From Antarcticimicrobium luteum (lineage in GTDB: Bacteria > Pseudomonadota > Alphaproteobacteria > Rhodobacterales > Rhodobacteraceae): DNA of 64,000 bases. The stretch lies in NCBI RefSeq assembly GCF_004358185.1, contig NZ_SMUV01000056.1:1-64000 (forward strand), read 5' to 3'. Shown piece after piece: positions 18,045 to 35,012 of the stretch (within the stretch, counting starts at the first letter, position 1; each line of letters starts with the position of its first letter). The notes below the pieces were generated by a model that was not told where the DNA came from, did no database searches, and saw only the letters and a program-made list of their open reading frames with translations. A program made the position numbers and the translations under genes.

Positions 18045-18046
18045 GA

Positions 18047-18793: not shown

Positions 18794-18797
18794 GGGG

Positions 18798-19475: not shown

Positions 19476-19529
19476 GTTTTCACCTCAGACGCTATAGTTT
19501 CACTGGGCCGAAAAAGGTCCATTTTCTCG

Positions 19530-19549: not shown

Positions 19550-19659
19550 AGCGCGGGAAGCGGTTATGTCTGATGAGTGTTTCCCCCCTTGTATCTTGAT
19601 TGTGGGGCGCGAAGTTCATAGTCTCCGCGTAGAACAAAACGCGAATTTAAAGGCTGCAC

Positions 19660-20190
19660 ATGGGTCATGCTATCGAGCTAACAGAGGAAGAGTCGTCGAT
19701 CCTGTCCGAAATCGAATTGAATCAATCCAAGCTGGACCACGACCAATACAAGCGGCAAGGGCCGTTGGTCTTGCAGCTATTGAAGTCTTTGGTGGACCGG
19801 GGTGCGATACCGGAAGTCCGGCTGCGCTATTGGTCTGATCCGGAATATCAGGTTGGGCGGTTGAAGGCTTCGCACAAAGGCTTGTTTGAACGAAACGGAC
19901 AGCGGGGCGACGAAATCTACACGCACCCTCACTTCCTGAAATACCTGCGCTACTTCCTGTTTGGCGCGCAGTTGCCTGCAGGGGTGATCGCGGAGTTTGA
20001 CGGGGTGGTGGGCAACCCGGAATGTGTTTCATGCGGCGACGTTACCGACATTACTAAGGGCACACGGCGCATCGTTCGGGAATACGGCTTGCAGGGCGAA
20101 GATGAAGAGTTTTACCGGCTGGCATTGGATGTGGGTTTGCATCAGTGGTTTGCCAAGGCGGTGCGGGATGCGGTGAAGCAAGTGCGATAG
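19660..20190 (+). CDS. Hypothetical protein, first gene of the Abi_C operon
   Basis: The 176-residue soluble protein has no family I recognise. It is mostly helical, with a charged N-terminus (ELTEEESSILSEIELNQSKL) and a single CVSC pair near residue 128. It is followed after 15 bp by the Abi_C-domain gene, so the two are very likely co-expressed and may act as partners. It lies divergent from the TerY-P triad, inside the dusA element. Confidence 0.7.
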   Translation: MGHAIELTEEESSILSEIELNQSKLDHDQYKRQGPLVLQLLKSLVDRGAIPEVRLRYWSDPEYQVGRLKASHKGLFERNGQRGDEIYTHPHFLKYLRYFLFGAQLPAGVIAEFDGVVGNPECVSCGDVTDITKGTRRIVREYGLQGEDEEFYRLALDVGLHQWFAKAVRDAVKQVR

Positions 20191-20205
20191 GGGAGAAGAA
20201 GAAAC

Positions 20206-21051
20206 ATGGACGATAAAATCCCGTCACCAGTCATCGGCGTGTTGGGTGAGGTCTTCAGCGATCACTACACGCATTCGGATATTGACCGGCTTTTCACCTA
20301 CGCGGACGCGCCGGGGGATGCTCCGGAGGGCAACAAAGTCAAGAAAACCGTCGAATGGTTGCGATGGACCAACAAGCAAACCGAAAGGCCGTTGGAAGTG
20401 CTGGGGACACTCTTGGAGGACCTTCTCGAAAAGGAGCCTTGGGATTCCGCCTACAGTCCACCTTGGGCTACCGATGATGAGCCGGAATGGTCTGTCACCC
20501 TGCGAAGTCGCCAAGATCGCATTCGTACCGCCTTGGGCAAGGCAGGGCTGGCCTATTCTTCTGGCGGACATGTGGGATCCGCATCAGCTACACCCACGGC
20601 GTCACTGCGGGAAATGATCGAACGCGGCGGGTTATCAGCCGTTGCAGTGGAAATGACACGGGCACTCAAACAGGTTGAGGGCGATCCGAATGCCGCTGCC
20701 CACTACGCCGGGAATGTGCTGGAAGCTGCGCTGAAAGCCTACCTTACCAAGAAGGGCGTCACGTTCAACGATCAGAGCGAGACTTTGAATGGCCTTTGGC
20801 AACTCACACGCGATGATCTTGGGATCAACCCGAAAAACCTCGAAGCCAAGGACCTGAAAAAGATCGCGTCCGGGCTGAACAGCATAGTTGATGGGACGAT
20901 GTATATGAGGAACAAGAAGAGCGGCGCGCATGGTCGAACAGAGGACCAGTTGCGCGCCGCGGTTCTTCGCCCGCGCCATGCTAGGTTAGTCATCCATTCG
21001 GCGCATACGCTGGCGGCATATGTTCTGGAGTGCCTCGCGGACGCTCCATAG
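20206..21051 (+). CDS. Abortive infection (Abi_C/HEPN) domain protein
   Basis: In the 281-residue protein, the first half (about 1-125) has no recognised fold. The second half (about 145-280) resembles the Abi_C C-terminal domain, with LEAALKAYLTKKGV, IASGLNSIVDGTMYMRNK and a final AAYVLECL helix. R235-x6-H242 in RNKKSGAHG fits the HEPN nuclease motif. Abi_C proteins occur in phage-defence loci and probably cleave RNA on infection. The gene is paired with the 19660 gene and followed by a membrane-anchored protein gene after about 60 bp. RNase activity is inference from the motif. Confidence 0.78.
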   Translation: MDDKIPSPVIGVLGEVFSDHYTHSDIDRLFTYADAPGDAPEGNKVKKTVEWLRWTNKQTERPLEVLGTLLEDLLEKEPWDSAYSPPWATDDEPEWSVTLRSRQDRIRTALGKAGLAYSSGGHVGSASATPTASLREMIERGGLSAVAVEMTRALKQVEGDPNAAAHYAGNVLEAALKAYLTKKGVTFNDQSETLNGLWQLTRDDLGINPKNLEAKDLKKIASGLNSIVDGTMYMRNKKSGAHGRTEDQLRAAVLRPRHARLVIHSAHTLAAYVLECLADAP

Positions 21052-21113
21052 AAACATGAAGCCCGCACCACTATATTGTGAGCGTCGGGCGCAAATGAAT
21101 CATAGGTATAGTG

Positions 21114-22202
21114 ATGGCGGATGATAGCGATGAAGGCGAAGGGGAAGGCCGCAGGGCCTTTGATCTATCTGAGCTGACTGGGTTCGGCGAGGACTATTTC
21201 AGCGCATCCGATAGGCTTGCCAGAGAGTACGAGAAGCTGAACCCGTCGCTATCTGCGATCACGAAAGCCTTTGAGGTGTCCGGGTTGGGAAGTCTATCCA
21301 GCGTCATGGATGCGGCTGGGATGAACGCTGCTCAACAGGCACTTGGTTTGGGCAAAACCGGCGAAATCGGGCAGATCATGGACGATCTGACAGGCACCAA
21401 GGCGCTCGCCGAAGCGACCCGCAGCCTTCAAATGCCGAGTGTTGGAATTCTTGCTGACCTTACCAAGAGCCTCGACTTGGTGGGTTTCAACGCGGCGGCC
21501 CAACGAATCCTAGACACGGATAGCATGGTCGGAAGCACCTTCTCTCGCCTGACGCAGGATTTGCAAACCGGCATCGCGGTACAGGCGATGCGCGCCATGG
21601 AAATGCCGGGCCTGCAAAATATTCTTGGAACTCTGAACACGGGCGGCATTGGACGGGCCATTGCCGATGCAAACCTCGCGCTTGGTGTCGGGCTGCCTGC
21701 AACGTTTGGGCAGGATTTGCAGTCGGCGGTTGGTGGCCTCGCCAACCATATGGGCGCGATGGGGGAAATTGGCCGCGCCCATCAGGCGGCATTCGAGAGT
21801 TTCCGGCTTACAAACCTTGAGACGCTGTTGGCCAAATCGTTGGCGGTCCATGAAGCGCTGCTGGAAGAACAGCAACAAGCTACGCTCGACGCGAAGGCCG
21901 AGGCGAAGTTCAACAGGCGTTTGGCCGTGGTACTCGCAGTCATCAACATCATCATGCTCCTAATGTCGATGGTCGGCACGATAGAGGACTGGATGACCGA
22001 TGAAGACGCCGCGACGAAGGCCAACACCGCCGCAATCGTGGAAATGCGTGACGCCTTTGACGCCATGGCGAGCGAAATGGAAGCCATGCGCGCGACACAG
22101 GAAGCCGAAGCAGAACGGCAGTCGGAAGCCGATGCTGAAATCGCTGGGATACTACGGGATATTGCCGACGCTCTTGCTGACCGAACGGAGACTGACGAAT
22201 GA
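21114..22202 (+). CDS. Hypothetical protein with one C-terminal membrane segment and coiled coil
   Basis: The 362-residue protein begins with an acidic stretch. It continues through a long helical region (about 60-240) rich in Ala, Gly, Leu and Met with a repeating LQMPSVG / MEMPGLQ style. One hydrophobic segment (LAVVLAVINIIMLLMSMVG, about 274-292) follows, then a charged coiled-coil-like tail rich in Glu and Ala. ATG 21114 was chosen over the adjacent GTG 21111. It lies 62 bp after the Abi_C gene on the same strand, separated by a weak GCCCG/CGGGC hairpin. No family is recognised. A membrane-linked effector or sensor for the adjoining Abi_C module is a guess from context. Confidence 0.6.
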   Translation: MADDSDEGEGEGRRAFDLSELTGFGEDYFSASDRLAREYEKLNPSLSAITKAFEVSGLGSLSSVMDAAGMNAAQQALGLGKTGEIGQIMDDLTGTKALAEATRSLQMPSVGILADLTKSLDLVGFNAAAQRILDTDSMVGSTFSRLTQDLQTGIAVQAMRAMEMPGLQNILGTLNTGGIGRAIADANLALGVGLPATFGQDLQSAVGGLANHMGAMGEIGRAHQAAFESFRLTNLETLLAKSLAVHEALLEEQQQATLDAKAEAKFNRRLAVVLAVINIIMLLMSMVGTIEDWMTDEDAATKANTAAIVEMRDAFDAMASEMEAMRATQEAEAERQSEADAEIAGILRDIADALADRTETDE

Positions 22203-22333
22203 CGATGTGGAAGCGGATTCCTCAACGCTAGTCCGGTCGCATAGTTATCATAGGGCGCTGTGGACCTGAAACACATTCTCCAAAAAAGGTAGTTGACAAT
22301 CCGTCCGCGGCATGAACCGTTCGTGTCCCTCGC

Positions 22334-22362
22334 TTGACATTTTGATTCGTTTCATGTACAAG
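22334..22362 (+). promoter_or_regulatory. Sigma-70-type promoter for the regulator operon
   Basis: TTGACA at 22334-22339 and TACAAG at 22357-22362 are separated by 17 bp. Transcription would start near 22370 and run through two small hairpins into the gene at 22451. Confidence 0.6.
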
Positions 22363-22377
22363 TGAAGCACATTCAGA

Positions 22378-22415
22378 GAACGCTGATGGCGTTCTAGACA
22401 GTGCCGGGGGCACTG
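22378..22415 (+). promoter_or_regulatory. Leader with two consecutive hairpins
   Basis: GAACGC-TGATG-GCGTTC (22378-22394) and CAGTGCC-GGG-GGCACTG (22399-22415) are perfect stems 4 bp apart, between the promoter and the gene start at 22451. No U-run follows. They could be RNA leader structures that affect translation, or DNA operators for the HTH protein encoded just downstream. Confidence 0.5.
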
Positions 22416-22450
22416 TGAATCTTCACCGAAAAACAGAAATGGAGGGTCCA

Positions 22451-23017
22451 GTGGATCAGGGACTCCACACCGTATCCGTGCGGGATATTTGCGCGGTCTA
22501 TGACGTAACTACTCGCACCGTTAACCGGTGGCTGAATGAAAGCGGCGAACCCGCGCCACGTTTCCGGGGTGGGGAAGAAGCCTACTTCGCGATAGCAGAC
22601 TTGATGCTACGCATTCCGCGTGACCCTGCGCCGTTGCTGTCGTTGGATCGCCAGCGGCGACCGGACGCATCGCCCGAGATCGGTTTAGGCTACGAGATCA
22701 CCAAGCGCGCAAAGCGCCTCTGGATGGTTATTACGCCCGAGCAGCGGCAGAAAATGTCCGAGGTGCAGGCGGCATATCGAGAGGCGGTGGCGCGTGCCTT
22801 CTGGGAAAAGGTCCTGTTTCTGGACTCGGATCACCTCACGCAATCTCTCTCGCTGCATCCTGCCATCCTACAGGCTGTGGTCGGAAATGCCGATTTGCCA
22901 GAGGACTGGGAAGACTTCTGCATCGCATTCACCCTCGCAAACACGTCGCCTAAGAGCCTTTGGCGGCTGACGAAATCACATACCTATAACGAAGGAAAAA
23001 CTACCCATGCCGCATGA
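22451..23017 (+). CDS. HTH (MerR-like) DNA-binding protein
   Basis: The start is assigned to GTG 22451 (188 residues), because GGAGGG lies 5 nt upstream; an earlier GTG at 22415 falls within a hairpin and lacks a ribosome binding site. Residues about 8-50 (VSVRDICAVYDVTTRTVNRW followed by a wing-like GGEEAYFAIADL) look like a MerR-type winged helix. The rest is helical with unknown role. The position right after the leader, upstream of the tiny-gene cluster and primase, suits an early regulator or an excisionase-like factor. The 3' end overlaps the next gene by 11 bp. Confidence 0.65.
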   Translation: MDQGLHTVSVRDICAVYDVTTRTVNRWLNESGEPAPRFRGGEEAYFAIADLMLRIPRDPAPLLSLDRQRRPDASPEIGLGYEITKRAKRLWMVITPEQRQKMSEVQAAYREAVARAFWEKVLFLDSDHLTQSLSLHPAILQAVVGNADLPEDWEDFCIAFTLANTSPKSLWRLTKSHTYNEGKTTHAA

Positions 23018-23417
23018 TAGCGATTTTCAGATCACCGACGAGATGATCGAATTCAACACCGAAGCCCGTGGCGCGACCGCTGCGCTATTGGAAAACCTCA
23101 AATCCACATCCGCCGGTGCGCGCCTATCGGCCACCATCGCCAAGGTTACTGGATTGGTGGCCCAGAGATACGGGGTCGTGATCGACAGTGATAGCGCCCT
23201 TATGTTGCCGGGTGTCAAAGCGGCGGTGATGGGGTCTGACCTTCTTGATGAAGACAGTCTCTTGTTTGCCGCCGAGCAAAAGATTGCCGCCGTGGCCTTC
23301 AAGGCTCTGGGTGGGTCTAACGGGGGAGGGGCCAGCGACACACGAGTCCCCGACAACTTCGATACTATGTCCCCTCAGGCGCGCATCAACTGGGCGCGAC
23401 AGAACGGGGTTGCGTGA
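23007..23417 (+). CDS. Hypothetical protein (136 aa)
   Basis: The frame overlaps the regulator gene by 11 bp, so it is probably translationally coupled to it. The product is helical and Ala/Ser-rich, with a Gly/Ser linker (GGSNGGGASD) and a short tail (MSPQARINWARQNGVA) that resembles small phage proteins. No domain is recognised. It is part of the early region upstream of the primase. Confidence 0.6.
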   Translation: MPHDSDFQITDEMIEFNTEARGATAALLENLKSTSAGARLSATIAKVTGLVAQRYGVVIDSDSALMLPGVKAAVMGSDLLDEDSLLFAAEQKIAAVAFKALGGSNGGGASDTRVPDNFDTMSPQARINWARQNGVA

Positions 23418-23485
23418 TGAGCTGGCAAGATAAGCAACTAATCGTTCTCCAAGCGAACGTTGGTACGGGGAAGGCGGTTCAATGA
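23417..23485 (+). CDS. Possible 22-residue microprotein
   Basis: ATG 23417 overlaps the preceding TGA (TGATG), and the TGA at 23483-23485 overlaps the next gene's ATG. The 22 residues begin MSWQDKQLIVLQ. Its only support is the exact chaining of overlaps, which suggests it may serve for translational coupling. Confidence 0.35.
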   Translation: MSWQDKQLIVLQANVGTGKAVQ

Positions 23486-23742
23486 TTGCCGATATCGACC
23501 GCGTCACCGACCAGCTTAAGGCCGAACTGGCGCAGATCGCAGCCGTGCACGGAGTCGCAGTGGTGGACCTGCGCGCGAGCGAGGTCCGCAGCCGCTACGG
23601 TGTAAACGGAACCGTGATGGCGCGGGCGCTGCGCAACGCTGGATTTTGGCTGTGCGATGACAACCGCTGGCGAGCGATTGCGGGCGCGTCACAGATCGCA
23701 ATTACAGGGACGACCAGCGACGGGGGCACTCCCGCCCCCTGA
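23482..23742 (+). CDS. Hypothetical protein (86 aa)
   Basis: The product is a small protein whose central part (VDLRASEVRSRYGVNGTVMARALRNAGF, about 29-56) could fold as a helix-turn-helix. The tail WLCDDNRWRAI resembles phage-encoded DNA-binding proteins that read out a winged element. A GGGGAAGG ribosome binding site lies upstream. It is followed by about 235 bp of very GC-rich sequence with no gene. Function unknown. Confidence 0.55.
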   Translation: MIADIDRVTDQLKAELAQIAAVHGVAVVDLRASEVRSRYGVNGTVMARALRNAGFWLCDDNRWRAIAGASQIAITGTTSDGGTPAP

Positions 23743-23977
23743 GGCGTTGGGGAAGGGCGGGGCGTCTGCCACGGCAGTCAGCCCGCCCGATGACCAATCC
23801 CCCGCGACAAGTCCAGCGGCGCGGGGTGGGGAGTGTGGCCCCCGAGGGGCGGCGGTTTCGTGTCACGCCGCCGCCCCACTATCAGAATACCTGCGCGACC
23901 GCAGAACCGTGCCGGACAGGCGGCGGGGTGGTGGAAGGTAACTGTCCCGCGCGCCACGCATCGAGAAAGGAAAGAGT

Positions 23978-24124
23978 ATGACGAAGGCACAGGTCGCGAC
24001 GGCGGAAGTGATGGAGATTTGCGAGAAGCTGGATGATCTGAGCGCGAATCCGGTGAACGGCGGGGACATGGTCCGCTTACTCGGTCTCTCAAGAAAGCAC
24101 TGGATCGGCAGGCCCGCGAGATGA
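23978..24124 (+). CDS. Small hypothetical protein (48 aa)
   Basis: ATG 23978 has a good GAAAGGAAAG ribosome binding site. The product contains VMEICEKLDDLSANP and a possible short HTH (MVRLLGLSRKHW). The stop (TGA 24122-24124) overlaps the ATG at 24121, coupling it to the next small frame. Unrecognised; size and location suit an early phage-type gene. Confidence 0.5.
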   Translation: MTKAQVATAEVMEICEKLDDLSANPVNGGDMVRLLGLSRKHWIGRPAR

Positions 24125-24267
24125 AGAAGCAGGCCGATATAGGCCTGTGTCAGGAAAACCGGACATTTCCCGTTGCAGCGCCGCAACACGGCCCGAAAAG
24201 CGACACATGCAATGCGGGATTGTGGGCGGTGAAGATCACCCAAAAGGGCGTCTTTTCGTCTTCATGA
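24121..24267 (+). CDS. Small hypothetical protein (48 aa)
   Basis: This frame starts on an ATGA overlap with the preceding small gene and ends at 24267. The residues show no recognisable pattern and the C-terminus is Ser-rich. It is supported only by the overlap and intact frame, and could be spurious. Confidence 0.35.
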   Translation: MKKQADIGLCQENRTFPVAAPQHGPKSDTCNAGLWAVKITQKGVFSSS

Positions 24268-24296
24268 CGAACCATTTTTGATCGGACGGTCAAGGA

Positions 24297-24308
24297 GTCG
24301 TCTTTAAG
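24297..24308. promoter_or_regulatory. Shared 12-bp motif GTCGTCTTTAAG, copy 1
   Basis: The same 12 bp occur at 31811-31822, where they form part of a palindrome upstream of the PrtN-like gene. Here the motif lies 84 bp upstream of the small gene at 24393. Two copies in front of two operons of one element suggest a shared operator or activator site. Confidence 0.4.
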
Positions 24309-24392
24309 GTAAATGTCCGAATTTAATGAATATTTTCAGAGTTCGCAGTTGCGGCTATGCTGGTCATGCAACCATGAGAAGGAGAACTAAGC

Positions 24393-24569
24393 ATGACCGT
24401 AGATCAGACAATCACCGGCGCCATGACCTTGAGTGACACTATCGCAGAAAGTGTCCTGTCCAGCCGTTCGAACGGGGCGGCAATCGCCGCAGCAGAACAG
24501 CTTCTGATCGTCCTGAGGGCGCAGGCCGAATTGATCGGGCGCGATAACGTGGTGCCGCTTAATGGATAA
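24393..24569 (+). CDS. Small hypothetical protein (58 aa)
   Basis: ATG 24393 follows a strong GAAGGAGAAC ribosome binding site. The product is a helical, Ala-rich 58-residue peptide (MTVDQTITGAMTLSDT at the N-terminus, then NGAAIAAAEQLLIVL). It overlaps the next gene by 8 bp, forming a coupled pair just upstream of the primase gene. Function unknown. Confidence 0.6.
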   Translation: MTVDQTITGAMTLSDTIAESVLSSRSNGAAIAAAEQLLIVLRAQAELIGRDNVVPLNG

Positions 24570-24942
24570 GCCGCGCATCAAGTTAAAGGTATGGGGCAAG
24601 GACCGCAATTTTAACCACCTCAAGTGCTGTGCGCTTTCGCGTACACGGGAAGGCGACCCGCGTTACTACAAGGAGGCCGAGGAACAGCACGGGGAACGTG
24701 CAATGGTCAATTACATCCGTCATGAGTACACCAATTATGATGACCTCATTGAACGGGGATATGACCGTGACGAAGTCCGCCCGTTGGTGCTTCGAAGGAT
24801 CGGGGAAGCGTACCCCTCCCTGCTTAGGGAGTGCACCCGTCAGGGCGCGGATATGACGGGCTACAAGTTTGATCTGGTGCCTAACGAGCAAGGAATCTTG
24901 CAACGTGTTTGGCGGCACGATCAAGTCGCCAGACCCGTCTAA
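24562..24942 (+). CDS. Hypothetical protein (126 aa)
   Basis: The product is charged and Tyr/Arg-rich (WGKDRNFNHLKCCALSRTRE, then YIRHEYTNYDDLIERGYD), with no recognised domain. It is coupled to the upstream 58-residue gene and lies 125 bp before the primase start. Its position suggests a replication accessory role, but no motif supports this. Confidence 0.6.
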   Translation: MDKPRIKLKVWGKDRNFNHLKCCALSRTREGDPRYYKEAEEQHGERAMVNYIRHEYTNYDDLIERGYDRDEVRPLVLRRIGEAYPSLLRECTRQGADMTGYKFDLVPNEQGILQRVWRHDQVARPV

Positions 24943-25066
24943 TACAACACGATAGAGCCGTCCCCTAACGGGGGCACAACGTAAGATCGGACCCACCGAA
25001 TACAATGTCCGCACAACGCCGATTCAGGCGGCGGGTGAGGTGCGTCCAAAATATGGAGCAGTAAAA

Positions 25067-28000
25067 ATGAATCTTTCAGCGGCGCAGGCGTTCGAGACCG
25101 CCGGGGCAGGAGCACGGGAAGCGTGGGCGGAGGTGATCCAGTTCCCCATTAACCTGATGGGGGGCCGCGTTAGCGGCGGCAAGACTGCCGAACCGGCGTT
25201 CGACATGGAAGCGGAGCGCGGCGAGGATATCAACGACGCCGCCACCTACGGCGGAATGTCGGAAGGGCTTGCGGAGTTTCTGAACAAGGACGCCACGTTC
25301 CTGATCGGCCAGATGTGGGGCGCAAAGGATCGCCGCAACACACAGGACGGCGATTGGCAGGCTGTGACCATGCCGTGGGGCCGCTGGATCGAAGGCGGAC
25401 CCGCGACGGGCAAGCGCCCGGTGTGGGGCTTCTCCCGCCACCCAGAGGGAAAGCACAAGGAAGGGGCATCCATCGTTCTAGGATCGTCAATCGAAGGCGC
25501 GCGCAAAGCAAATGCAATGGACGAGATGTACGCCCTTGGTCTCGATATCGACTCCGGGGCGGCGCTGGATGATGTAATCGCCACGGTCCGCCGCAAGAAC
25601 CTGTGCGCCCTGATCTATACCAGCCACAGCCACGGCAAGCGCGGCCTTGAGCTAAAGCGCGATGACGTCATGCGCAAACTCGGGATCGACACGGACCCGA
25701 CCTTGCCGCAGGTACAAGAGTATCTGAGGGCGCACAGCAAGAGCCGGTACGAGGAATCTTTCGTCGCCGCCGTGACCATCGCAGACCAAAAGCGCCAGAC
25801 CAAGGAAGGCGTTAAGATTGCGCTGGACACACCGCCGCTGGATAAGTTCCGCATCATCTTCCCGCTTGCCGACGCGGTGAAGCTGATCGACCTTGCTCCA
25901 ACGCAGTCTGCGGCCCTTGAGGTGTGGGAAGACAAGATCACCGGCATGGCCCAGCGTGAACTTGGAATCCACTTCGACACGTCGTGTACTGACCCGTCGC
26001 GCCTGTTCTATACCGCGCGGCATGCCAAGGAATCCGAATGGGACTGCCTGATCCTGTGGGGCGAACCGCTGCGGTTCGAAGACGTGCCCACGATGAAAAA
26101 GGCGGAGTATACCCGGACCCGTGGCGGCGGCAACGCGTTCAGCATCGCCGGGGGCGATGCTGAAAAAGCGCCCGAGGCCGTCACCCCGTCCGGGAAGAGC
26201 CTCAACGAATGGCACTTCAGTCGCGGCGGCGCGAAAGACAGATTCCAACTGGCGTCTTTGCTGGAAGACCTGTGCCCGGACAAGATCCGCCATGCCGGGG
26301 GCGAGGCTCAGGGGCAGGTGCACACAGAATGCCCGTTCGAGCATGAGCACTCGAAATGGGGCGGCACCGCCACGATGGCAATCGACGCCATGGACGCAGA
26401 CAGAGGCTATTGGACGTGGTTCTGTCACCACGACTCCTGCCAAGGACGGCACAAGCTTCAGTTTCTGGAAGAGGCCTTGAATCAAGGTTGGTTTACAGAG
26501 GAAGACCTATTCAACGAGGATGGGCCGTACCTGTTGCCGCCGGGCGAGGAAGTCACCGGCACGCCAGGACGGCAAGACAGTGGTTCGGAAGTGGCCGCGT
26601 CAGCGGCTGACGCCGCCAACTACTTCGTACAGGCCGGGGAATTCGACAAGAACACCCGAGGGGTGGACGTCGAAAAGTGGATGAAGCAATTCGCTGGTAA
26701 GGAACTGGACCCGGCGGACAAAAACCAAATCACCGATATCATCGTGGAACGGACGCCGCTCGGTAAGCGCGATGTAAACAAGATGTGGTCCAAGGTGGAC
26801 CGCGTAAAAGAGCGCATGGCGGCGAACGAGGCTAAGGCCAAGGCGGACGACTCCGGCGTGATCATGACGGACGGCGACTTCACCGACATGTGCGACAAGG
26901 CGCAGGGCATGGTAGACGCGGCTAACGCCGCCACGCCCTTCCTGTTCGTCCGGGGCGGGGAACTGTGCACCGTGCAAGAGGACGATGGAATCTCCGGCAT
27001 CAAGGTTCTGTCGTCGCAAGGTGCGTTTGCTTACTACCTCAACACGGCGGCACGGTTCGCCAAGCGCATGGGCGATGACGTACAAGGCGCGCCTGCACCT
27101 ATCGAGGTGGAAAAGCACCTGTATCACGCGCCGCGTAATCGCTACCCCGGCTTGAAGGGTGTGACGTCCAATCCGTTCTTTACGAAAACTGGTGATCTGG
27201 TGACACAGCCGGGATATCACGACGAGTCTCAGATGTACTACGCGCCCGGTGATTTTGTGGTCCCCGGCGTCAGCCGGAATCCGTCACTGGAGGAGGCCAA
27301 GGCCGCGATTGATATGCTGGCGGATGCACTGGCAGACTTCCCCTTCGATGGGCTGACCCGCGCGCAGATCAAAGAACAGTTTTGGGAAGGTGGAGTCCCG
27401 TCTCTGGTCAACTTCCTGTCGGCGCTTCTGCTGCCGTTCATGCGTGAAATGATCGACGGCAGGACGCCGGGGCACGCGATCAACAAGCCCTGTCCCGGCA
27501 CCGGTGCAAGCTACCTTGTGGATGTTCTGAGTATCATCAATACCGGGGAAGATACGCCCGCGCACAAACCATCCGAGGACAAAGCGGAGTTTGCCAAGGC
27601 GCTGGTGGGGCTGTTGCTGGACGGTGACCCTATCATCAACTTGGATAATATCAGCGCCGGTATGGATAGCGGAGAACTTGCGGCGGCGATGACATCAAGC
27701 AAATACTTCCCCCGGATTCTCGGGAAGTCTGAGACCCGGAAGATTGCCGTTACTTGCCTTTGGCTTCTGACTGCGAACAAGCTGGAACTGTCCGATGAAC
27801 TGAAACGGCGCTGCATCCTGATCGCTCTGAATGCCAACATGGAAAATCCGGAAGACCGGACGGGATTCCAGCGCTCCGATATCCGGGGATATGTCCGCGA
27901 GAACCGGGCGGAATTCGTTCATGCTTGCCTGACGATCATTCAATTCTGGGTAGCCTCAGGCATGGAACAGGATGACACCAAGCACCTAGCCTCATTCGAG

Positions 28001-28312
28001 AACTGGGCGCGCGTCATGGGCGGGGTGTGGAAAGCATGTGAGGTGCCGGGATTCATGGGCAACATGCACATGTTGAAAACACTGACCGATGGCAAGCGCG
28101 ACGAAATGGGCGAGTTGATTCAGGCGCTGGTGGATGCTGCGGTATCGACCGACAAGGAATTGACTGCCGAGTCCTACCTGTTCAAGGCGCGCAAGGCAGG
28201 GAGCGACGACAAGTTCCTGAGCGTGATGGGCGTGCTGAACGCGTTCGAAGAGCCGCCACGGTTCGCGAAATGGGGAGGCGTTGAACGAGTCGAAGGCTGG
28301 TCTCGCCTCTGA
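25067..28312 (+). CDS. Large primase/AAA+ helicase-like replication protein
   Basis: The start is set at ATG 25067 (1081 residues). The N-terminal half resembles phage and plasmid primase-polymerase proteins: an ALIYTSHSHGK segment near 180, a FRIIFPLAD strand near 255, and FDTSCTDPSRLFYT near 303. A Cys/His cluster follows (TECPFEHEHSKW ... FCHHDSC, about 420-460) that could bind zinc. The C-terminal part is AAA+-like, with a Walker A-like PGTGAS (about 808-813) lacking the usual lysine, Walker B LDGDPIINLDN (about 848-858) and sensor LLTAN (about 899). It probably starts replication of the excised element. The missing lysine may weaken ATP use. Confidence 0.7.
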   Translation: MNLSAAQAFETAGAGAREAWAEVIQFPINLMGGRVSGGKTAEPAFDMEAERGEDINDAATYGGMSEGLAEFLNKDATFLIGQMWGAKDRRNTQDGDWQAVTMPWGRWIEGGPATGKRPVWGFSRHPEGKHKEGASIVLGSSIEGARKANAMDEMYALGLDIDSGAALDDVIATVRRKNLCALIYTSHSHGKRGLELKRDDVMRKLGIDTDPTLPQVQEYLRAHSKSRYEESFVAAVTIADQKRQTKEGVKIALDTPPLDKFRIIFPLADAVKLIDLAPTQSAALEVWEDKITGMAQRELGIHFDTSCTDPSRLFYTARHAKESEWDCLILWGEPLRFEDVPTMKKAEYTRTRGGGNAFSIAGGDAEKAPEAVTPSGKSLNEWHFSRGGAKDRFQLASLLEDLCPDKIRHAGGEAQGQVHTECPFEHEHSKWGGTATMAIDAMDADRGYWTWFCHHDSCQGRHKLQFLEEALNQGWFTEEDLFNEDGPYLLPPGEEVTGTPGRQDSGSEVAASAADAANYFVQAGEFDKNTRGVDVEKWMKQFAGKELDPADKNQITDIIVERTPLGKRDVNKMWSKVDRVKERMAANEAKAKADDSGVIMTDGDFTDMCDKAQGMVDAANAATPFLFVRGGELCTVQEDDGISGIKVLSSQGAFAYYLNTAARFAKRMGDDVQGAPAPIEVEKHLYHAPRNRYPGLKGVTSNPFFTKTGDLVTQPGYHDESQMYYAPGDFVVPGVSRNPSLEEAKAAIDMLADALADFPFDGLTRAQIKEQFWEGGVPSLVNFLSALLLPFMREMIDGRTPGHAINKPCPGTGASYLVDVLSIINTGEDTPAHKPSEDKAEFAKALVGLLLDGDPIINLDNISAGMDSGELAAAMTSSKYFPRILGKSETRKIAVTCLWLLTANKLELSDELKRRCILIALNANMENPEDRTGFQRSDIRGYVRENRAEFVHACLTIIQFWVASGMEQDDTKHLASFENWARVMGGVWKACEVPGFMGNMHMLKTLTDGKRDEMGELIQALVDAAVSTDKELTAESYLFKARKAGSDDKFLSVMGVLNAFEEPPRFAKWGGVERVEGWSRL

Positions 28313-29807
28313 CGATCTGTGGACTCGTCTCGCAAACAGCCTGCGCGGCTACACCGGCGACGCACAGGGCCAAATCCGGCGCATGGGCGACGAACTGGAC
28401 CTGTCCAAGGTGCAGGCCACATCGCTGCACAGCGCCCTTACCGCCGCGATCAACACCGATGACCCGTCAGCATATGCCGACGCCCTGCGCGGCGTTAGAG
28501 GCCAGCTAACCGCAGTTTCCGGCGGCGTCGAGAACATGACCGGAAGTCAGCGGGCTTTCTATGAAATGCTGGTGGAGTCCGAGGACAAAGCCCGCCAATT
28601 GGCGGCGCTGGACATGGCTACCCCCGTGTCCGCTGCAGCGGATGAAGCCGCCCGGCTGGCGGAAAAATTCGGGCTATCGCTGGGGCTGGCCCGCCAACTG
28701 GCGAACGTGGGTAAGAAGCCGGGCGGAACCGTGTCTGGTTTCGAATCCAATGACCCTCGGAATCCATCGAATGCCGGTAAGTGGACCGGCGGTTATTCCA
28801 CGTCATGGGAAGCTTGGACCCCGAAAAAATCGCGGGGCGGGGGCGGCGCAAATCTGACCGACGATCTGACCCGCACCACGGCGGCGATGCGTGAGCAGGG
28901 ACTCGCATTGGAGGCGCTGGCAGCGGGCCGTTACAGCAGCGAAGAGGCCGCGCGCCTGTGGGCGCAGGCCATGGTTGAAGGCAACGGCACCATCGACGCG
29001 CAGACCGCCGCAATGCTGGTGAATATCGACACGATGGCCCAACGCAATGAGGCCATGCGCAACGCGCCTGCCGACTTCGGCAAGGAACTGGCAGCGGGCA
29101 CTGAGACAGCGCTTGAAAACGCCATTCGGGAGGGCCTGACCGGCGGCAAACCTTCGATACAAAACTTTGCCAAGGCCATTCAATCGCACGTCGCCGGGGC
29201 GCTGGCAAAATCGCTCGCAACGAAAATTACAAGCGGTCTAGGCCTTGACCGGCTGTTCAACGCAGGCGGGACCACAGCGGCAGCCCAAATGCAGGCTGGA
29301 ATTGTGACCGGGGGTAACATCGCCGCCCAAACCATCGCGCAGGCGGTGGCGACCGGCAACGCGACAGCCGCAGCAACCGGCGGGGGCGGTGGGTCCGGAA
29401 ATTGGCTATCGACCGCCTTGAATTTCGCTGTGTCGGCGTTCACCGGCGTTCCGATGTTCAAAGAAGGTGGATTCAGTGACGCTCCACACCCGTTCGCCAA
29501 TGCCCCGCACTATGCCGAGGGTACATCCAACACGTCGAACGGAATCCCCGCTGTGCTGCACCCGAACGAGGCAGTCGTGCCCCTGACGCGTGGACGTAAA
29601 ATTCCGGTTGAGGGCGCAGGCGGCGGGGGCAACAACTTCGGCGACATCAACATCGCTACCACCGTGAACGTAGAAGGGGACTCCAACGCTGAGGACTCCG
29701 CCAAGATCGCGCAGGCGGTGGGCGAGACAGTGGACGGCCGCATTCGCCAGATTTTGGCTGAAGAATCCGCCTACGGCGGCATCATGAACCCGCGCGGCGG
29801 GTACTGA
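28281..29807 (+). pseudogene. Phage tail tape-measure protein, C-terminal fragment
   Basis: About 500 residues match the C-terminal half of tape-measure proteins. There are long Ala-rich helical repeats, a hydrophobic glycine-rich segment (NWLSTALNFAVSAFTGVPMF, about 374-393), and the very typical ending FKEGGFSD ... GIPAVLHPNEAVVPL ... GRKIPVE. The frame overlaps the end of the primase gene by 32 bp and has only a TTG with no ribosome binding site, so the normal N-terminal part is gone. No other tail gene is present. It is either a deletion scar or a retained fragment. Translation by coupling to the primase stop cannot be excluded. Confidence 0.75.
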
Positions 29808-29838
29808 GCCACCCAAATCGAGCACAGAAAGAAAGAAC

Positions 29839-30099
29839 ATGAATCACCTGAAAATCATCGAACGCGGCGGACGCGTATCTGCGCCGCTGGCACTGGAAAA
29901 AGGCCCGCATGCAGTCATCGCAGAAGGCACCCGCGACGGCGCAGGCCTGCGCATCGGCTGGCAGCTATTCCCGCTGACCGGCCTAAACATCATCGAACTG
30001 GAAGGCGGCACCACCACCGCCGAACTTGTCAACACCGGTCCAGACACCGACGCTGCAATCTACCTCGCCAAGCTCCACCCCGTCGCGGGGGGCAACTGA
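29839..30099 (+). CDS. Small hypothetical phage-like protein (86 aa)
   Basis: The gene has an AGAAAGAAAG ribosome binding site before ATG 29839. The product looks beta-rich (APLALEKGPHAVIAEGTRDG, then IIELEGGTTTAELVN) with no cysteines and no membrane segment. It sits between the tape-measure fragment and the terminase small subunit gene, starting 1 bp before the latter's ATG. Phage structural accessory proteins of this size are common; no family is recognised. Confidence 0.6.
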   Translation: MNHLKIIERGGRVSAPLALEKGPHAVIAEGTRDGAGLRIGWQLFPLTGLNIIELEGGTTTAELVNTGPDTDAAIYLAKLHPVAGGN

Positions 30100-30100
30100 C

Positions 30101-30637
30101 ATGGCCCGCCTTGGAAACCACAAACATGAGCAATTTTCTCAACTAATCGCCGCAGGCGGCAAGCAGCGGGAGTCGTACATCGCCTGCGGGTATAGTGAAA
30201 AGAACGCAAAATCGCACGCCAGCCACCTAGCGGCTCGCCCGGACGTGAAGGCCCGGATTGAGGAATTGCAGGGGCAGGCGCTGGCACCGGTCATCGGCAA
30301 CATCGACCTCCCGTGGCTCACTGTGCCATGGCTTGCGGCCCAGTATGACCTAATCAGACAGAAGGCCATGGCGGCTGGGGACATGAAAACTGCGTCCGCG
30401 ACAGTGAAGAACGTTCAAAGCCTCATTGACCTTGAGTCACGCCTAGCCACCGAGAAAGCAGCCCCCCCCACGCCGGTGGCCCGAATAGACGTCAACGCCC
30501 TTGGCGGCATCTTGGGGAAGGTGGAAAACATCGTGAAGGCATCCAAGGCCCCGGCACCGGGGTGCGTGGAACTCGACTCGACGGTCCCCGCCGTCGTCAA
30601 GCTGCGGGCATACCGGGCGGCTGATCGCGCGACATGA
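30101..30637 (+). CDS. Terminase small subunit-like protein (TerS)
   Basis: ATG 30101 gives 178 residues. The N-terminal 60 or so (EQFSQLIAAGGKQRESYIAC, then GYSEKNAKSHASHLAARPDV and KARIEEL) follow the Terminase_2/phage HTH pattern, where a helix-turn-helix is followed by a charged helix. The remainder is helical (about 75-125) with a less ordered tail. A small terminase recognises packaging sites and normally works with a large ATPase/nuclease subunit, which is absent here. An orphan small terminase is a hallmark of phage-inducible chromosomal islands, which redirect helper packaging. The next gene is convergent, 15 bp away. Confidence 0.72.
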   Translation: MARLGNHKHEQFSQLIAAGGKQRESYIACGYSEKNAKSHASHLAARPDVKARIEELQGQALAPVIGNIDLPWLTVPWLAAQYDLIRQKAMAAGDMKTASATVKNVQSLIDLESRLATEKAAPPTPVARIDVNALGGILGKVENIVKASKAPAPGCVELDSTVPAVVKLRAYRAADRAT

Positions 30638-30652
30638 GCGCGACCGGCAATT

Positions 30653-31666
30653 TCATTGCTCAGTGGTCATTGCTCTACGCCGAACCATTTCCTGCATTCC
30701 CATATCGGTAAGAGACCAAAACAGATTAACGCCACCACCTACGGTTTTCGCGGTTTTTACCGACACAAGATTCAGCGCCATGAGCTGAATCTTAATGGTT
30801 TGAAACAGTTCATCGGTCATTACAAACGATCTCCCGCTCCTGTTTCCCGTGTTGAACCTTCTCCAGACGCCTTCGCAAATAATAGGGCCAACTGTCCTAT
30901 CGGGTTTTGCCTGCATCAAATGGGGTGCCAACAACTCGAATATCTCTCCAAGGCTGGTGGCTATCTCGATGCTAGATGTCGTTGATGAGTATTGGCCCGG
31001 CCTTGTATGTGAGTACTTCCCGGTTAGGGTGATGAACGTATCCAATCCTGCAAGGTTCTCCGGTACGGCAACCTGCGGCTTTGCTTCCGCCAAAACCTGT
31101 TTCAAGCGCTCGTTTTCCTCCTGAACAGCGACTAGCCGTTCAAGAGTTTCCTGAGAGGATGATTGGTCACCTCTAATCCATCCGGGCCGGTGTTTGGTTG
31201 CCTTGGCGTAATCCAACGCTTCGCGGATCGCCAGCTTAAGACCGTCTGTGGTTGTCCAGCCCTTGCGCAGCCTTCCGTCCGAAACAGTGGCAATGAACGC
31301 TTCCAATTTGGCCCGTTTCTCCGGATGGTCTTCCGTCTTGTTGGCGGGAAGTTCACCGCGCTCGTCCCGTAGCATAACGAGTACCGGGACACCGATTTCG
31401 ACTGCGTAGTCATATTCTTTTTCGGTATAGCTTTTTCCGTCAGGAGCTAGAGAGCCATAGCGACCAGCGATTATGAGCACATAGTAATCGCACTGCGAGA
31501 TAATGGTTTTGATGAACTCGAACTGTTCTTCGTCGGCTGCGGGAAATGCTTCCATGCCGACCGGGAAGTCCCCCGCGCGAATGATTGTCTGTTCGACGGC
31601 TTTACGCTCTTCCTTCAGGTCCTCATAGGTCGAGCTAATGAAAACCTGATACCTCTTCTCGCTCAT
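30653..31666 (-). CDS. DUF4062 protein (TIR-like N-terminal domain)
   Basis: The 337-residue product starts with the signature YQVFISSTYEDLKEERKAVE (about 6-25), followed by QCDYYVLIIAGRYGS and SYTEKEYDYAVE, which define DUF4062. A coiled-coil stretch (LERLVAVQEENERLKQVLAE, about 174-193) leads to a C-terminal domain with a final helical part. DUF4062 shares the flavodoxin-like fold of TIR/SEFIR domains and is common in proteins suspected of defence or signalling. The gene is the only minus-strand cargo in the right half of the element and ends 16 bp from the TerS gene. Role unproved. Confidence 0.8.
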   Translation of the reverse strand: MSEKRYQVFISSTYEDLKEERKAVEQTIIRAGDFPVGMEAFPAADEEQFEFIKTIISQCDYYVLIIAGRYGSLAPDGKSYTEKEYDYAVEIGVPVLVMLRDERGELPANKTEDHPEKRAKLEAFIATVSDGRLRKGWTTTDGLKLAIREALDYAKATKHRPGWIRGDQSSSQETLERLVAVQEENERLKQVLAEAKPQVAVPENLAGLDTFITLTGKYSHTRPGQYSSTTSSIEIATSLGEIFELLAPHLMQAKPDRTVGPIICEGVWRRFNTGNRSGRSFVMTDELFQTIKIQLMALNLVSVKTAKTVGGGVNLFWSLTDMGMQEMVRRRAMTTEQ

Positions 31667-31965
31667 GAAATCGGGCCTCTACTTATTATCGCTTTGCACG
31701 CATCGTGCATTGATTAGCGCGAACCTGCAACCTCTAGGCGACATGCCGTATCGATTTTACACCGTTCTATTCGACGGTAGCTACAAACCCCATCCCAATG
31801 ATGCAAGAAAGTCGTCTTTAAGACGAATAACATGTTGATAACGTGTATTTTTTTTAGATCTTGGGTGTGATTCAGGATTGCAAAACGTGTTGCACGATGC
31901 TAGGTGAAACCTACCGAAACACGGAAAGGAATTCGGCATGAAGCACTAGTAAAAGGAGACCTATA
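31667..31965. other. Divergent promoter region with three palindromes
   Basis: The roughly 300 bp between the DUF4062 gene and the PrtN-like gene have no gene. They contain TGCACG-CAT-CGTGCA (31695-31709), TCGTCTT-T-AAGACGA (31812-31826, overlapping the second GTCGTCTTTAAG motif) and a T-rich run near 31848. A further GTTGCACGATGC near 31890 repeats part of the first palindrome. This is a likely control region for both genes. Confidence 0.6.
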
Positions 31966-32226
31966 TTGAACACACAGTTCCTGTTGATGGCCCGGTATGA
32001 GGGCGCAACGATGATCCCGGCGGACACCGTCCGCGAAGACTTTTTCCCACACCTGACCCGTCCCAAGTTCCTGCGAAAGATCGCGGACGGGGATATCAAG
32101 TTGCCGGTGGTCCAGATGGAAGAAAGTCAGAAGAGCGCCAAGGGTTTCGATATCCGCGACCTTGCCGCATACTATGACGAACGGCGGGACCAAGCCCGCC
32201 GCGATTTCGAAAAATTGCATCACTGA
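31966..32226 (+). CDS. Pyocin activator PrtN-family regulator
   Basis: TTG 31966 is used as the start because AAAGGAG lies about 8 nt upstream and the residues from there match PrtN proteins: NTQFLLMARYEGATMIPAD, FFPHLTRPKFLRKI, and LPVVQMEESQKSAKGFDIRDLAAYYDERR. The 86-residue length is normal. PrtN activates pyocin operons in Pseudomonas, and relatives occur near phage and defective-phage genes. Here it lies in the right end, upstream of two small genes and facing the integrase. It probably controls element genes in response to stress, but its target sites are unknown. Confidence 0.82.
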   Translation: MNTQFLLMARYEGATMIPADTVREDFFPHLTRPKFLRKIADGDIKLPVVQMEESQKSAKGFDIRDLAAYYDERRDQARRDFEKLHH

Positions 32227-32236
32227 GGGCGGCGGT

Positions 32237-32569
32237 ATGATTAAGAAATACACCCGCGAGCGCCTCTATTCTCGCCCCGATCTGACCGAACGGGGATGGA
32301 CGAAATCCATGCAGGATAGGTACCTGCCGGAACCGGACGATTTCAGGGAGAACCCGCATTATAAATGCGCCGGAGTCATGCATTTGTGGCTGCGGGCGCG
32401 GATTCACCGCATCGAAAAAGGTAAAAGGTTTCAGGCGACCAAGGCGCGGGCTGACGCCCGTCGCGCCAAGTTGCCAGAGCGGCAGAGCAAGCCGCGCATG
32501 ACAGCCTTGGAACGTAGGCAGACGGAGCATGACGCGGCATATGCTGCGGGGGATGGCTACTATGACTGA
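32237..32569 (+). CDS. Hypothetical protein (110 aa)
   Basis: ATG 32237 follows the PrtN gene by 10 bp, with GAGGGCGGCGG as ribosome binding site. The product is strongly basic and rich in Arg/Lys and aromatic residues (YTRERLYSRPDLTERGW, DRYLPEPDDF), so a DNA- or RNA-binding role is possible. No family is recognised. Its 3' end overlaps the next gene by 8 bp, so the three genes form one operon. Confidence 0.65.
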   Translation: MIKKYTRERLYSRPDLTERGWTKSMQDRYLPEPDDFRENPHYKCAGVMHLWLRARIHRIEKGKRFQATKARADARRAKLPERQSKPRMTALERRQTEHDAAYAAGDGYYD

Positions 32570-32753
32570 GCAAGCAATGCCCGATGGTGTAGAAGTCGCC
32601 CGCACTGCCCTTGTAGCCATGGGGTGGGATGGCGTAGATCAAGGCCCAGTCGCCGCTCTAATCTACTTCCTGACGCAGGAGATTAAGGCGGAGGGATACC
32701 CCGGCGAGAGTACAAGAAGTATGCTTCACGCTATCGCGGAGCATTACGGGTGA
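32562..32753 (+). CDS. Small hypothetical protein (63 aa)
   Basis: ATG 32562 (reading MTEQAMPDGVEVARTAL) overlaps the stop of the preceding gene and is preferred over the earlier in-frame ATG at 32529. The product is a short helical, acidic protein. It closes the PrtN operon and is followed by a terminator hairpin. Function unknown. Confidence 0.55.
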   Translation: MTEQAMPDGVEVARTALVAMGWDGVDQGPVAALIYFLTQEIKAEGYPGESTRSMLHAIAEHYG

Positions 32754-32760
32754 AGTGAAA

Positions 32761-32789
32761 CAGGTATGCCCCCGTTAGGGGGGCACCTG
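32761..32789. terminator. Bidirectional terminator hairpin
   Basis: The stem pairs CAGGT.GCCCCC with GGGGGGCACCTG around a GTTA loop, with a small bulge. It lies between the converging PrtN operon and the integrase gene and would stop transcription from either side. Confidence 0.7.
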
Positions 32790-32790
32790 T

Positions 32791-33885
32791 TCAGGTGACA
32801 GCTTCAATCCATTTCCAGTCCTGATACTTGTCACCGCTTTGGCGGACGTGGGTGTAACGCTCTAGGCTCTTCCATGCCTTGTGACCGGTCACTGCGGCGA
32901 GTTGCGGGACCGTACGCCCCATTTCAGCTAAGCGGCTGGTGCCTTCATGCCTGAGGTCATGGAAATGCAAATCCTCTATACCGAGGAACTTGCAGGCTTC
33001 CGTGAACCTGCGGCTGACCGTGTCGCTGTTGTACGGGAATATCCGGTCTTTCTTCCGGGGCATGGTGTCGATGATGGCACAGCACGGGTCGGGAAGTTCC
33101 ACCCACGTATCAACGCCCCTCTTAGCGCCGGGGTTTTTCATCTTTCGAACGAGGACTCGCTTGTGGTCTGGTTCGTAATCACCCCACGCAATCCGCAGAA
33201 TCTCCGCCTGACGGCGGGTGCTGAAAATCGCAAAGGCCGTGATGATGTGCATAGGCATCGTGCGGGTGTCTGCTTCTGTGGCCTGCTGGAAATGCTCCAT
33301 AAGCCTGTCCAGTTCTTCCAGCGTGGGGCGGCGCGTCCGCTCTTCCGGCTTGCTGACGAAGCCCATGGTGCCGCAAACCTTCTGGGCGTCCTGCATAGCC
33401 TGCGAGTTCAGGGGATAGCCCCAGAGGGGGCGGGCGGTTGAGAACACCCCAGACAGGTGCGAGAGGTAGTTGAGGGCCGTCGCCGGGGAGTTCAGGCCGG
33501 GGCGCTTGTGCAGTTCCTTGACGAAGGCAACGATATGGTGGGACTCGATCTGGTCGCAGGCCATGTTCGCTATGTCGTACTCGTCCCGGATCGTTTTCAG
33601 CACCTGCGCCTTGGTCTTCCCGATTTCCCGCATGGACTCCTTGACGTACTGGTCTATGGCATCCCCGAGAGTCACGCCCTTTTCGCTACGCTTCTTGACT
33701 TCGCGACCGGCGGCGATATCCGCGTCAATCTCAGCCTCACGCTTCTTTGCCCATGCCTGAGCGGTCTTCAGTTTGTCAAAGGACCTTGTTTCAGTGTATC
33801 GCTTGCCGCTGGGGAGTGTCCTAGTGATCTGGGCTTTGTGCCCGGTTGATCCGTCCTTGCGCTGTACGGGTGGGAAGGTGGCCAT
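32791..33885 (-). CDS. int: Tyrosine-type site-specific integrase (dusA-associated)
   Basis: ATG 33885 is chosen (364 residues, beginning MATFPPVQRKDGSTGHKAQI); longer frames run into the repeat-rich attR region. The N-terminal arm-binding and core-binding domains occupy about 1-180. The catalytic residues are all visible: Arg in STRRQAEILRIAW (near 225), Lys in VRKMKNPGAKRG, HxxR in FHDLRHEGTSRLA (near 320), His in TGHKAWK and Tyr in LERYTHV (near 350). It catalyses integration and excision at dusA. It lies at the right end facing inward, with the start 101 bp from the dusA start. This matches the dusA-targeting integrases known in proteobacterial prophages and islands. Confidence 0.93.
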   Translation of the reverse strand: MATFPPVQRKDGSTGHKAQITRTLPSGKRYTETRSFDKLKTAQAWAKKREAEIDADIAAGREVKKRSEKGVTLGDAIDQYVKESMREIGKTKAQVLKTIRDEYDIANMACDQIESHHIVAFVKELHKRPGLNSPATALNYLSHLSGVFSTARPLWGYPLNSQAMQDAQKVCGTMGFVSKPEERTRRPTLEELDRLMEHFQQATEADTRTMPMHIITAFAIFSTRRQAEILRIAWGDYEPDHKRVLVRKMKNPGAKRGVDTWVELPDPCCAIIDTMPRKKDRIFPYNSDTVSRRFTEACKFLGIEDLHFHDLRHEGTSRLAEMGRTVPQLAAVTGHKAWKSLERYTHVRQSGDKYQDWKWIEAVT

Positions 33886-33889
33886 TCTC

Positions 33890-33982
33890 GTATGACTCCG
33901 GTGTTGGTTCGTATGACTCCGAGTCATACAGTATGACAAAATGGGCGTAAATGGTCCAAAATAGGCCGAAATGGTATGACTC
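33890..33982. promoter_or_regulatory. Cluster of integrase arm-type repeats in the int-dusA intergenic region
   Basis: GTATGACTC occurs at 33890-33898, 33911-33919 and 33974-33982. Its reverse complement GAGTCATAC lies at 33921-33929, and a partial copy, GTATGAC, at 33931-33937. The same motif is found inside attL at 15792. All copies lie in the 101-bp gap that must also hold the promoters of both int and dusA. Confidence 0.65.
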
Positions 33983-33986
33983 GGTG

Positions 33987-35012
33987 ATGGTAAAAAAGAC
34001 TGCAAAATCAAGCGTTTCAAGGGCTTCAAGGCTATCTATTGCCCCGATGATGGACTGGACCGATCGCCATTGCCGCTATTTCCACCGGCTGCTCAGCCGC
34101 GAGGCGTTGCTTTATACCGAGATGGTGACCGCGCCGGCACTGGTGCGGGGCGGCGCGCTGCATCTGTTGGACCACAGCCCCGAGGAGCATCCTGTCGCGC
34201 TGCAGCTGGGCGGCTCGGACCCGGCGGAACTGGCGCGGGCGGCGCGGCTGGGGGCCGAGGCCGGCTATGACGAGATCAACCTCAACTGCGGCTGCCCGTC
34301 GGACCGGGTGCAGTCGGGCACATTCGGCGCGGTGCTGATGACCCGGCCGGGGCTGGTCGCCGATTGCGTCGCGGCGATGCGGGACGCGGTGGATGTCGAG
34401 GTCACGGTGAAATGCCGCATCGGGGTCGACGACCAGGATCCGGACCAGGTGCTGCCGGATTTCCTCGCGCGGGTTTCGGCGGCGGGCTGCGGCCGCTTCA
34501 CCATCCATGCGCGCAAGGCCTGGCTGCGGGGGCTGTCCCCGAAGGAAAACCGGGACATTCCGCCGCTCGATTACGATCTGGTGATGCGGATGAAGGCGGC
34601 GTTCCCGCATCTTCACCTTTCGGTGAACGGCGGCGTCGCCGCGCTGGATCAGGCAAGCGGCTTTCTCGATGCCGGGCTTGACGGGGTGATGATCGGGCGC
34701 GCAGCCTATCACACCCCGGCCGATATCCTCGCCGCGGCCGACCCGGTGATCTTCGGCACCGGCGCGGCGGCCGATCCGGTTCAGGTGGCGCGCGCCATGC
34801 TGCCCTATATCGACCGGCATATTGAGGCCGGCGGGCGGCTGCATCAGGTGACGCGGCACATGCTGGGCCTGTTCGCGGGGCGGCCCGGGGCGCGGGCCTG
34901 GCGGCGAATCCTGTCCGAGGGGGCGACGCGCCCCGGCGCCGGATCCGATCTGGTGGAACAGGCGCTGGCGCGGGTCGGGGCCGAGGCCTCGGCGCCACAG
35001 GGCGCGGACTGA
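33987..35012 (+). CDS. dusA: tRNA-dihydrouridine synthase A
   Basis: The 341-residue FMN-dependent enzyme reduces uridine in the D-loop of tRNA. It shows SIAPMMDWTDRHCRYFHR at the N-terminus, the catalytic cysteine in INLNCGCPSDRV, and SVNGGV and GVMIGRAAY in the barrel. Start ATG 33987 and the first 20 or so codons are supplied by the integrated element; the displaced host start lies at 15657. Codons before 34044 are AT-richer than the rest, matching a swap of the 5' end. The reading frame remains intact, so the element preserves function but replaces the promoter. TauE/SafE follows 72 bp downstream. Confidence 0.93.
   Translation: MVKKTAKSSVSRASRLSIAPMMDWTDRHCRYFHRLLSREALLYTEMVTAPALVRGGALHLLDHSPEEHPVALQLGGSDPAELARAARLGAEAGYDEINLNCGCPSDRVQSGTFGAVLMTRPGLVADCVAAMRDAVDVEVTVKCRIGVDDQDPDQVLPDFLARVSAAGCGRFTIHARKAWLRGLSPKENRDIPPLDYDLVMRMKAAFPHLHLSVNGGVAALDQASGFLDAGLDGVMIGRAAYHTPADILAAADPVIFGTGAAADPVQVARAMLPYIDRHIEAGGRLHQVTRHMLGLFAGRPGARAWRRILSEGATRPGAGSDLVEQALARVGAEASAPQGAD
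34044..34060. repeat. Right attachment core (attR)
   Basis: CCGATGATGGACTGGAC matches attL (15722-15738) at 16 of 17 positions. It lies in the dusA codons for PMMDW. The host gene continues downstream without interruption. Confidence 0.85.

Follow-up and report, generated by a model that had tools for sequence, protein, structure and literature searches.

Repeats between int and dusA in a dusA-integrated element as candidate arm-type sites of the element's own integrase

In the 64,000-nucleotide stretch of Antarcticimicrobium luteum DNA analysed here (the window), the repeats GTATGACTC between int and dusA are very likely arm-type sites of the integrase (Int) of the element itself, through which Int would repress its own gene and might lower dusA expression. 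Binding, bending, autorepression and the effect on dusA are inferred. A sequence-only reading had called them integrase arm-type repeats, and the comparison of related elements speaks for this: matching words are found at both ends of an element, the layout of the copies is conserved, and the word co-varies with the N-terminal domain of Int.

Results

The element and its repeats

The coordinates of the features are listed in Table 1. The attL and attR cores, CCGATGATGGA(T/C)TGGAC, have one mismatch in 17 bp, and joining the outer flanks in silico gave an open dusA of 344 codons, in frame. At the attL end, genes for kinase-like, PP2C and VWA proteins lie in a row (15849-19475), followed by a gene for an AbiJ/Abi_C protein (20206-21051); together these look like defence or stress cargo. 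The element also carries a primase-like protein, a weak match to a terminase small subunit and a DUF4062 protein (30653-31666). An ORF at 28281-29807 matches the C-terminal part only of a tape-measure family, which suggests a degraded tail module. No excisionase or RdfN gene was recognised among the element ORFs searched.

Table 1. Features of the dusA-integrated element in the window
Feature	Position	Strand	Remarks
dusA-integrated element	15722-34060		cores 18,322 bp apart
attL core	15722-15738	+	17 bp
attR core	34044-34060	+	17 bp
Displaced host dusA 5' end	15656-15738	+	tblastn 68% over 19 aa; in-frame join to dusA
Probable scar of an earlier element	15558-15674	+	GCAACA-type arm array and part of donated dusA start; alignment to L106
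Putative far-side arm-type repeat	15792-15800	-	exact GAGTCATAC; inside the element, 54 bp beyond the 17-bp attL core
Possible degenerate second far-arm copy	15801-15809	-	GAGTATGCC; inferred from sequence
int, tyrosine recombinase of the dusA-associated integrase family	32791-33885	-	364 aa; Pfam PF00589 E 1.9e-19; phrog_1 integrase 6.3e-44
Predicted arm-binding domain, int codons 1-60	33706-33885	-	AlphaFold model, three strands plus helix
Putative arm-type repeat, copy 1	33890-33898	+	exact GTATGACTC; layout kept in relatives
Putative arm-type repeat, copy 2	33911-33919	+	exact GTATGACTC; 21 bp from copy 1
Putative inverted arm-type repeat	33921-33929	-	exact GTATGACTC, inverted
Partial copy	33931-33939	+	GTATGACAA; 7/9 letters
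Weak promoter-like site toward dusA	33933-33962	+	ATGACA-18-CAAAAT; 1 found vs 0.1 expected; sole such match in the window interval
A-runs	33938-33971	+	steps 11, 9, 11 bp; might form an intrinsic bend between arms and core
Putative arm-type repeat, copy 3	33974-33982	+	exact GTATGACTC
dusA with element-donated first codons	33987-35012	+	Pfam PF01207 E 1.8e-79

The divergent genes int and dusA are separated by 101 bp (33886-33986, taking 33885 as the first base of int and 33987 as that of dusA). The three direct copies, the inverted copy and the partial copy described there from the sequence alone were all located, and their positions bear out that the repeats sit in the upstream region shared by both genes. 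The five sites were also said to fill this region; they are present but cover 45 of the 101 bp, and 33940-33973 is empty. Copy 1 lies 4 bp ahead of the start codon of int, by position in the int ribosome-binding region, and copy 3 lies 5 bp ahead of that of dusA. Copy 2 and the inverted copy form a 19-bp palindrome with 9-bp arms and 1 bp between them. The further inverted copy that had been placed inside attL is there if attL is taken in the wide sense of arm plus core, but it lies beyond the core itself. The relative G160 carries the same word as this far arm, also beyond its core, and its counterpart of the possible second far-side copy is GAGTCATACGCAAGTCATGC.

In the whole 4.66-Mb assembly, exact GTATGACTC was found five times, each time at one end or the other of the element, and the reversed pattern, used as a control, was found twice. 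With one mismatch allowed, the word occurred 8 times in the window (6.3 expected; 36 of 100 shuffles reached 8). Since the one-mismatch word is not enriched in the window overall, the signal lies in the clustering of exact copies.

Conservation of the layout and change of the word

In relatives, a repeat was likewise found a few bp before the int start, with a second copy about 20 bp further on and an inverted partner. Among 62 nonredundant int-side regions (reduced from 82), 47 had an exact 7-mer direct repeat within the first 50 bp, compared with 1.7 expected from mononucleotide shuffles; the offsets were mostly 19-22 bp, with peaks at 20 and 21. An inverted 6-mer pair within 12 bp was present in 43 of the 62 regions, compared with 6.3 in shuffles. 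The direct repeat was missing in 15 of these regions and the inverted pair in 19, and the position of copy 3 (33974) had no counterpart at that place in the closest relatives, L002-L004.

The repeat word itself differs by clade and includes GTATGACTC, GGAACAACTT, TTACAACA, TTTGGTCCA, GGTATGCC and others. The sequence-only reading had made its case depend on conservation of the motif next to related integrases. This holds for the layout, which is mostly kept, but one exact word beside all related integrases had to be rejected: among 30 loci of the integrase family, exact GTATGACTC was found in only three (the window, G228 and G160) and the variant GTATGATTC in a fourth (G001). The dusA gene was present in 27 of the 30 family loci returned.

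Between the array and the core, A-runs in 28 int-side regions recurred at 9-12 bp, with 20 seen and 7.3 expected at lag 11, and were rare at lags 5, 15 and 25. This phasing is suggestive of a bend, in regions that are related and not independent sequences.

Matching of the two arms of one element

The int-side word recurred beyond the core in all 13 distinct complete phages used, where attP is one stretch, as judged by eye. Both arms were readable in 29 elements, comprising the window, 4 integrated relatives, 13 phages and 11 viral contigs. The mean score of an element's own arm was 9.62, compared with 7.47 for swapped arms (0 of 100,000 permutations). The own arm was top or tied-top in only 10 of the 29 elements; several elements have similar words. 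For G149 and L205, the own arm scored no better than the median of the other elements, and for BcepIL02 and L177 the best-scoring match was not the repeat. The far arm of L079 (G149) is GTACCAA, compared with TTTGGTCCA in its int-side array, and that of L205 is CGTACCA, compared with TTGCTACA; it is possible that these elements are recombinant or shifting in specificity. The core was similar in 28 of the 29 elements; TRS1 uses another, non-dusA site.

By scanning for cores and translations, attL was located in G160, G328, G149 and G203. A search by a strict inverted-motif pair found nothing, no attL was found for the remaining integrases whose interiors were scanned, and the surroundings of further copies of the word in G228 and G001 gave none. 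The phage cores were chosen manually, as was the int-side start of G203, which was placed on its repeat; a second stretch resembling the core occurs further along in L185. Excluded from the comparison were L098 (PAJU2, tRNA site), L042 (attR only), L171 (dusA called by tblastn), the near-duplicates L036, L040, L092 and L162, and viral contigs with dusA or with less than 130 bp beyond the core.

The integrase and its predicted arm-binding domain

Residues R224, H309, R312, H335 and Y344 of Int, which we take to be the catalytic R-H-R-H/Y residues of a tyrosine recombinase, were invariant in both alignments. The best phage relative of Int was 51.8% identical. Of 394 genomes from the same bacterial family, 59 (counting this one) had a match to Int at E 1e-40 or better. 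The AlphaFold model had an overall pLDDT of 91.4. At the N-terminus (pLDDT 86-92 by blocks of ten), it has strands at 6-8, 14-23 and 29-36 and a helix at 39-58; the second strand holds residues 17 and 21. Residues 71-351 of the model aligned with lambda Int at Z 18.0 and 2.6 A over 252 residues (structures 1z19, 1z1g and 5j0n); 1z1g aligned from residue 1 of the model, but with an rmsd of 12.1 A over the whole chain. A sequence search of solved structures gave one weak, unconvincing match. Lambda Int uses an N-terminal domain for the arms and a catalytic domain for the core, with arms on both sides of the core. The Int of the window likewise has two features of a heterobivalent integrase, namely a predicted three-stranded N-terminal sheet plus helix, and repeats on both sides of the core; its words and spacing differ from those of lambda. 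To our knowledge, a palindromic pair beside the int start is not a feature of lambda.

Across 45 integrases, word distance was correlated with distance in residues 1-60 (r 0.40), in the catalytic part (0.24) and in the core-binding part (0.16). Four of 49 integrases had been dropped, L010 and L026 because the N-terminus was not recovered and PS6 and L180 because the repeat call was off the motif. The partial correlation of the word with the N-terminus given the catalytic part was 0.32 (p 2e-4, the lower limit for 5000 permutations), and that with the catalytic part given the N-terminus was 0.03 (p 0.34); when the N-terminus was narrowed to residues 12-34, a catalytic remnant stayed (0.12, p 0.03). 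The columns most associated with the word corresponded to window residues 21, 17 and 5, followed by 324 (fourth) and 205 (fifth). Residues 1-60 held 11 of the 20 top columns and 48 of the 272 columns tested. Distant pairs (catalytic distance >0.45) that share residues 17 and 21 had a word similarity of 0.78, compared with 0.56 (21 of 266 pairs). Among control column pairs, 40 and 44 gave p 0.018 at one threshold and the six other tests were flat (seven tests ran; one more had too few pairs). The GTATGACTC clade departs from the two-residue pattern, its residues 17 and 21 varying while the word is constant, and T17-R21 occurs with several different words. By these alignments, the word tracks the N-terminal domain of Int rather than the catalytic part.

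Transcription toward dusA and int

The promoter-like site toward dusA overlaps the partial copy GTATGACAA, and in L002-L004 the best promoter match toward dusA was at the same place as in the window. Promoters were scored with a sigma-70 matrix in 48 of the 62 regions, those of the phage records and of G203 being left out. In these 48 regions, the scores were not above those of shuffles (mean z 0.29 toward dusA and 0.08 toward int). In 24 of the 48 regions, the best -10 toward int was 30-50 bp away from the int start, at or beside the palindrome, with scores likewise not above shuffles.

Elements integrated in dusA have been described as supplying the promoter and the N-terminus of dusA (PMC4482086, PMC8409611). 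For IMEVchUSA3, a new dusA promoter is reported to be supplied, and dusA was still expressed in E. coli after integration, at a reduced level (PMC8409611). In the account given of KplE1 IntS, the arm-type sites overlap the int promoter and int is negatively autoregulated (PMC2951348). The published promoter replacement and the autoregulation of IntS make plausible the idea, put forward from the sequence alone, that integrase controls dusA. Such control could couple the element to tRNA modification, and we regard it as a fair hypothesis.

Scars of earlier elements at dusA

The displaced dusA start was aligned with the int-adjacent region of L106, and 93 of 121 aligned columns were identical, including the GCAACA repeats and the palindrome. 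The alignment score was 86, compared with a maximum of 32 in its own 60 shuffles and of 37 in all 4800 shuffles. Judging from this alignment, the host dusA probably had an earlier upstream region that came from a previous element with another word. No second integrase was found in the window by tblastn with the window Int.

The same test was applied to 80 dusA loci at which no adjacent integrase had been recognised with the window Int, namely 79 from relatives and the attL of the window; in 60 of the 80, only 541 bp was examined. Fifteen of the 80 exceeded the largest of 4,800 shuffled scores, compared with one of 80 reversed and none of 80 reverse-complemented controls. Besides the attL of the window, the scar-like loci were L222, L223, L224, L237, L243, L249, L242, L213, L225, L108, L101, L244, L215 and L251, of which L215 and L251 were barely above the largest shuffle (38 vs 37). 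Clear traces of an int N-terminus were found in L222 (with an early stop), L223, L225 and L244, of which L223 may be functional. A further trace, in L243, is doubtful and consists mostly of a translated intergenic stretch. L211 and L254 were below the threshold, yet had int traces. Some of the 15 scar-like loci may have a divergent or decayed integrase rather than none. Since the shared stretch holds an integrase-type array, transfer from element to host seems more likely than elements copying host promoters.

Discussion

We propose that the N-terminal domain of Int would grip four or five int-side copies and one or two far-side copies, while the catalytic part would act at the core within dusA, and attP would thereby fold into an intasome. 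The phased A-runs between the array and the core may give the bend. As the int-side array is placed where transcription and translation of int occur, Int filling the array would repress its own gene. The array is also part of the stretch that takes the place of the upstream region of dusA, and Int on it may lower dusA transcription as well, which is the least certain step.

It is improbable, in our estimate, that the repeats are instead operators through which a separate regulator, such as a phage repressor or an excisionase of the RdfN type, acts on the divergent int and dusA promoters, with the palindrome as a dimer site. Palindromes of 19 bp are typical of operators, and that between int and dusA would suit one; there is also a weak helix-turn-helix match inside the element (22415-23017), and a directionality factor, RdfN, is described in related elements (PMC8409611). 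However, a copy of the word also lies about 18 kb off, past the opposite core of the integrated element, and in complete phages the int-side word likewise reappears past the core; the sequence of the word, moreover, follows the N-terminal domain of the integrase. An origin by chance or as simple low-complexity repeats would agree with the near-expected one-mismatch count in the window, but the genome holds no further exact copy, and many different sequences share the layout, so that we give this origin almost no weight.

With the repeats as arm-type sites of Int, there is still close to an even chance that they have no practical effect on dusA, either because the dusA promoter lies nearer to its start or because too little Int is present while the element is integrated. 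The continued, only reduced expression of dusA reported for IMEVchUSA3 in E. coli (PMC8409611) is in line with this, as is the finding that no convincing promoter overlaps the array. On the other hand, the only promoter-like match toward dusA in the window overlaps a repeat copy, and another copy lies 5 bp from the start codon of dusA.

The element of the window resembles the prophages and islands with dusA-associated integrases (DAI) of Farrugia et al. (2015) (PMC4482086), for which semiconserved core repeats are described, with an integrase beside the 5' end of dusA and replacement of the first dusA codons and of the upstream region. That paper describes core direct repeats, and the terms "arm-type" and "arm site" are absent from its main text; the arm arrays and clade-specific words are added here. 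In IMEVchUSA3 and other Vibrio dusA islands, the int promoter is reported to be active, and the description, by which they are compared here, attributes control to RdfN and AcaCD/SgaC with no integrase binding sites seen in it (PMC8409611). KplE1 IntS differs in that its target is described as a tRNA gene, argW (PMC2951348), which is presumably independent of the overlapped promoter. A literature search for dusA together with arm-type sites found no paper. Arm-type sites are ordinary in kind, and the detail is new for the dusA integrase family as far as literature searches show.

A more far-reaching reading, which we consider unlikely, is that the arm words have diversified because dusA elements share nearly one core. 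The words would be read by a few residues of the second strand, so that the integrase of one element does not move another. With an array in every upstream region that an element hands over to dusA, dihydrouridylation of host tRNA would then come under the control of successive integrases, and decayed elements would leave their promoters as a permanent part of the host.

If Int reads the words, dusA elements would form a natural series in which one integrase fold has many arm specificities on a nearly constant core, which would make the rule of arm recognition directly testable. Likewise, dusA would be a host gene whose promoter has been repeatedly replaced by mobile elements, with integrase sites attached each time.
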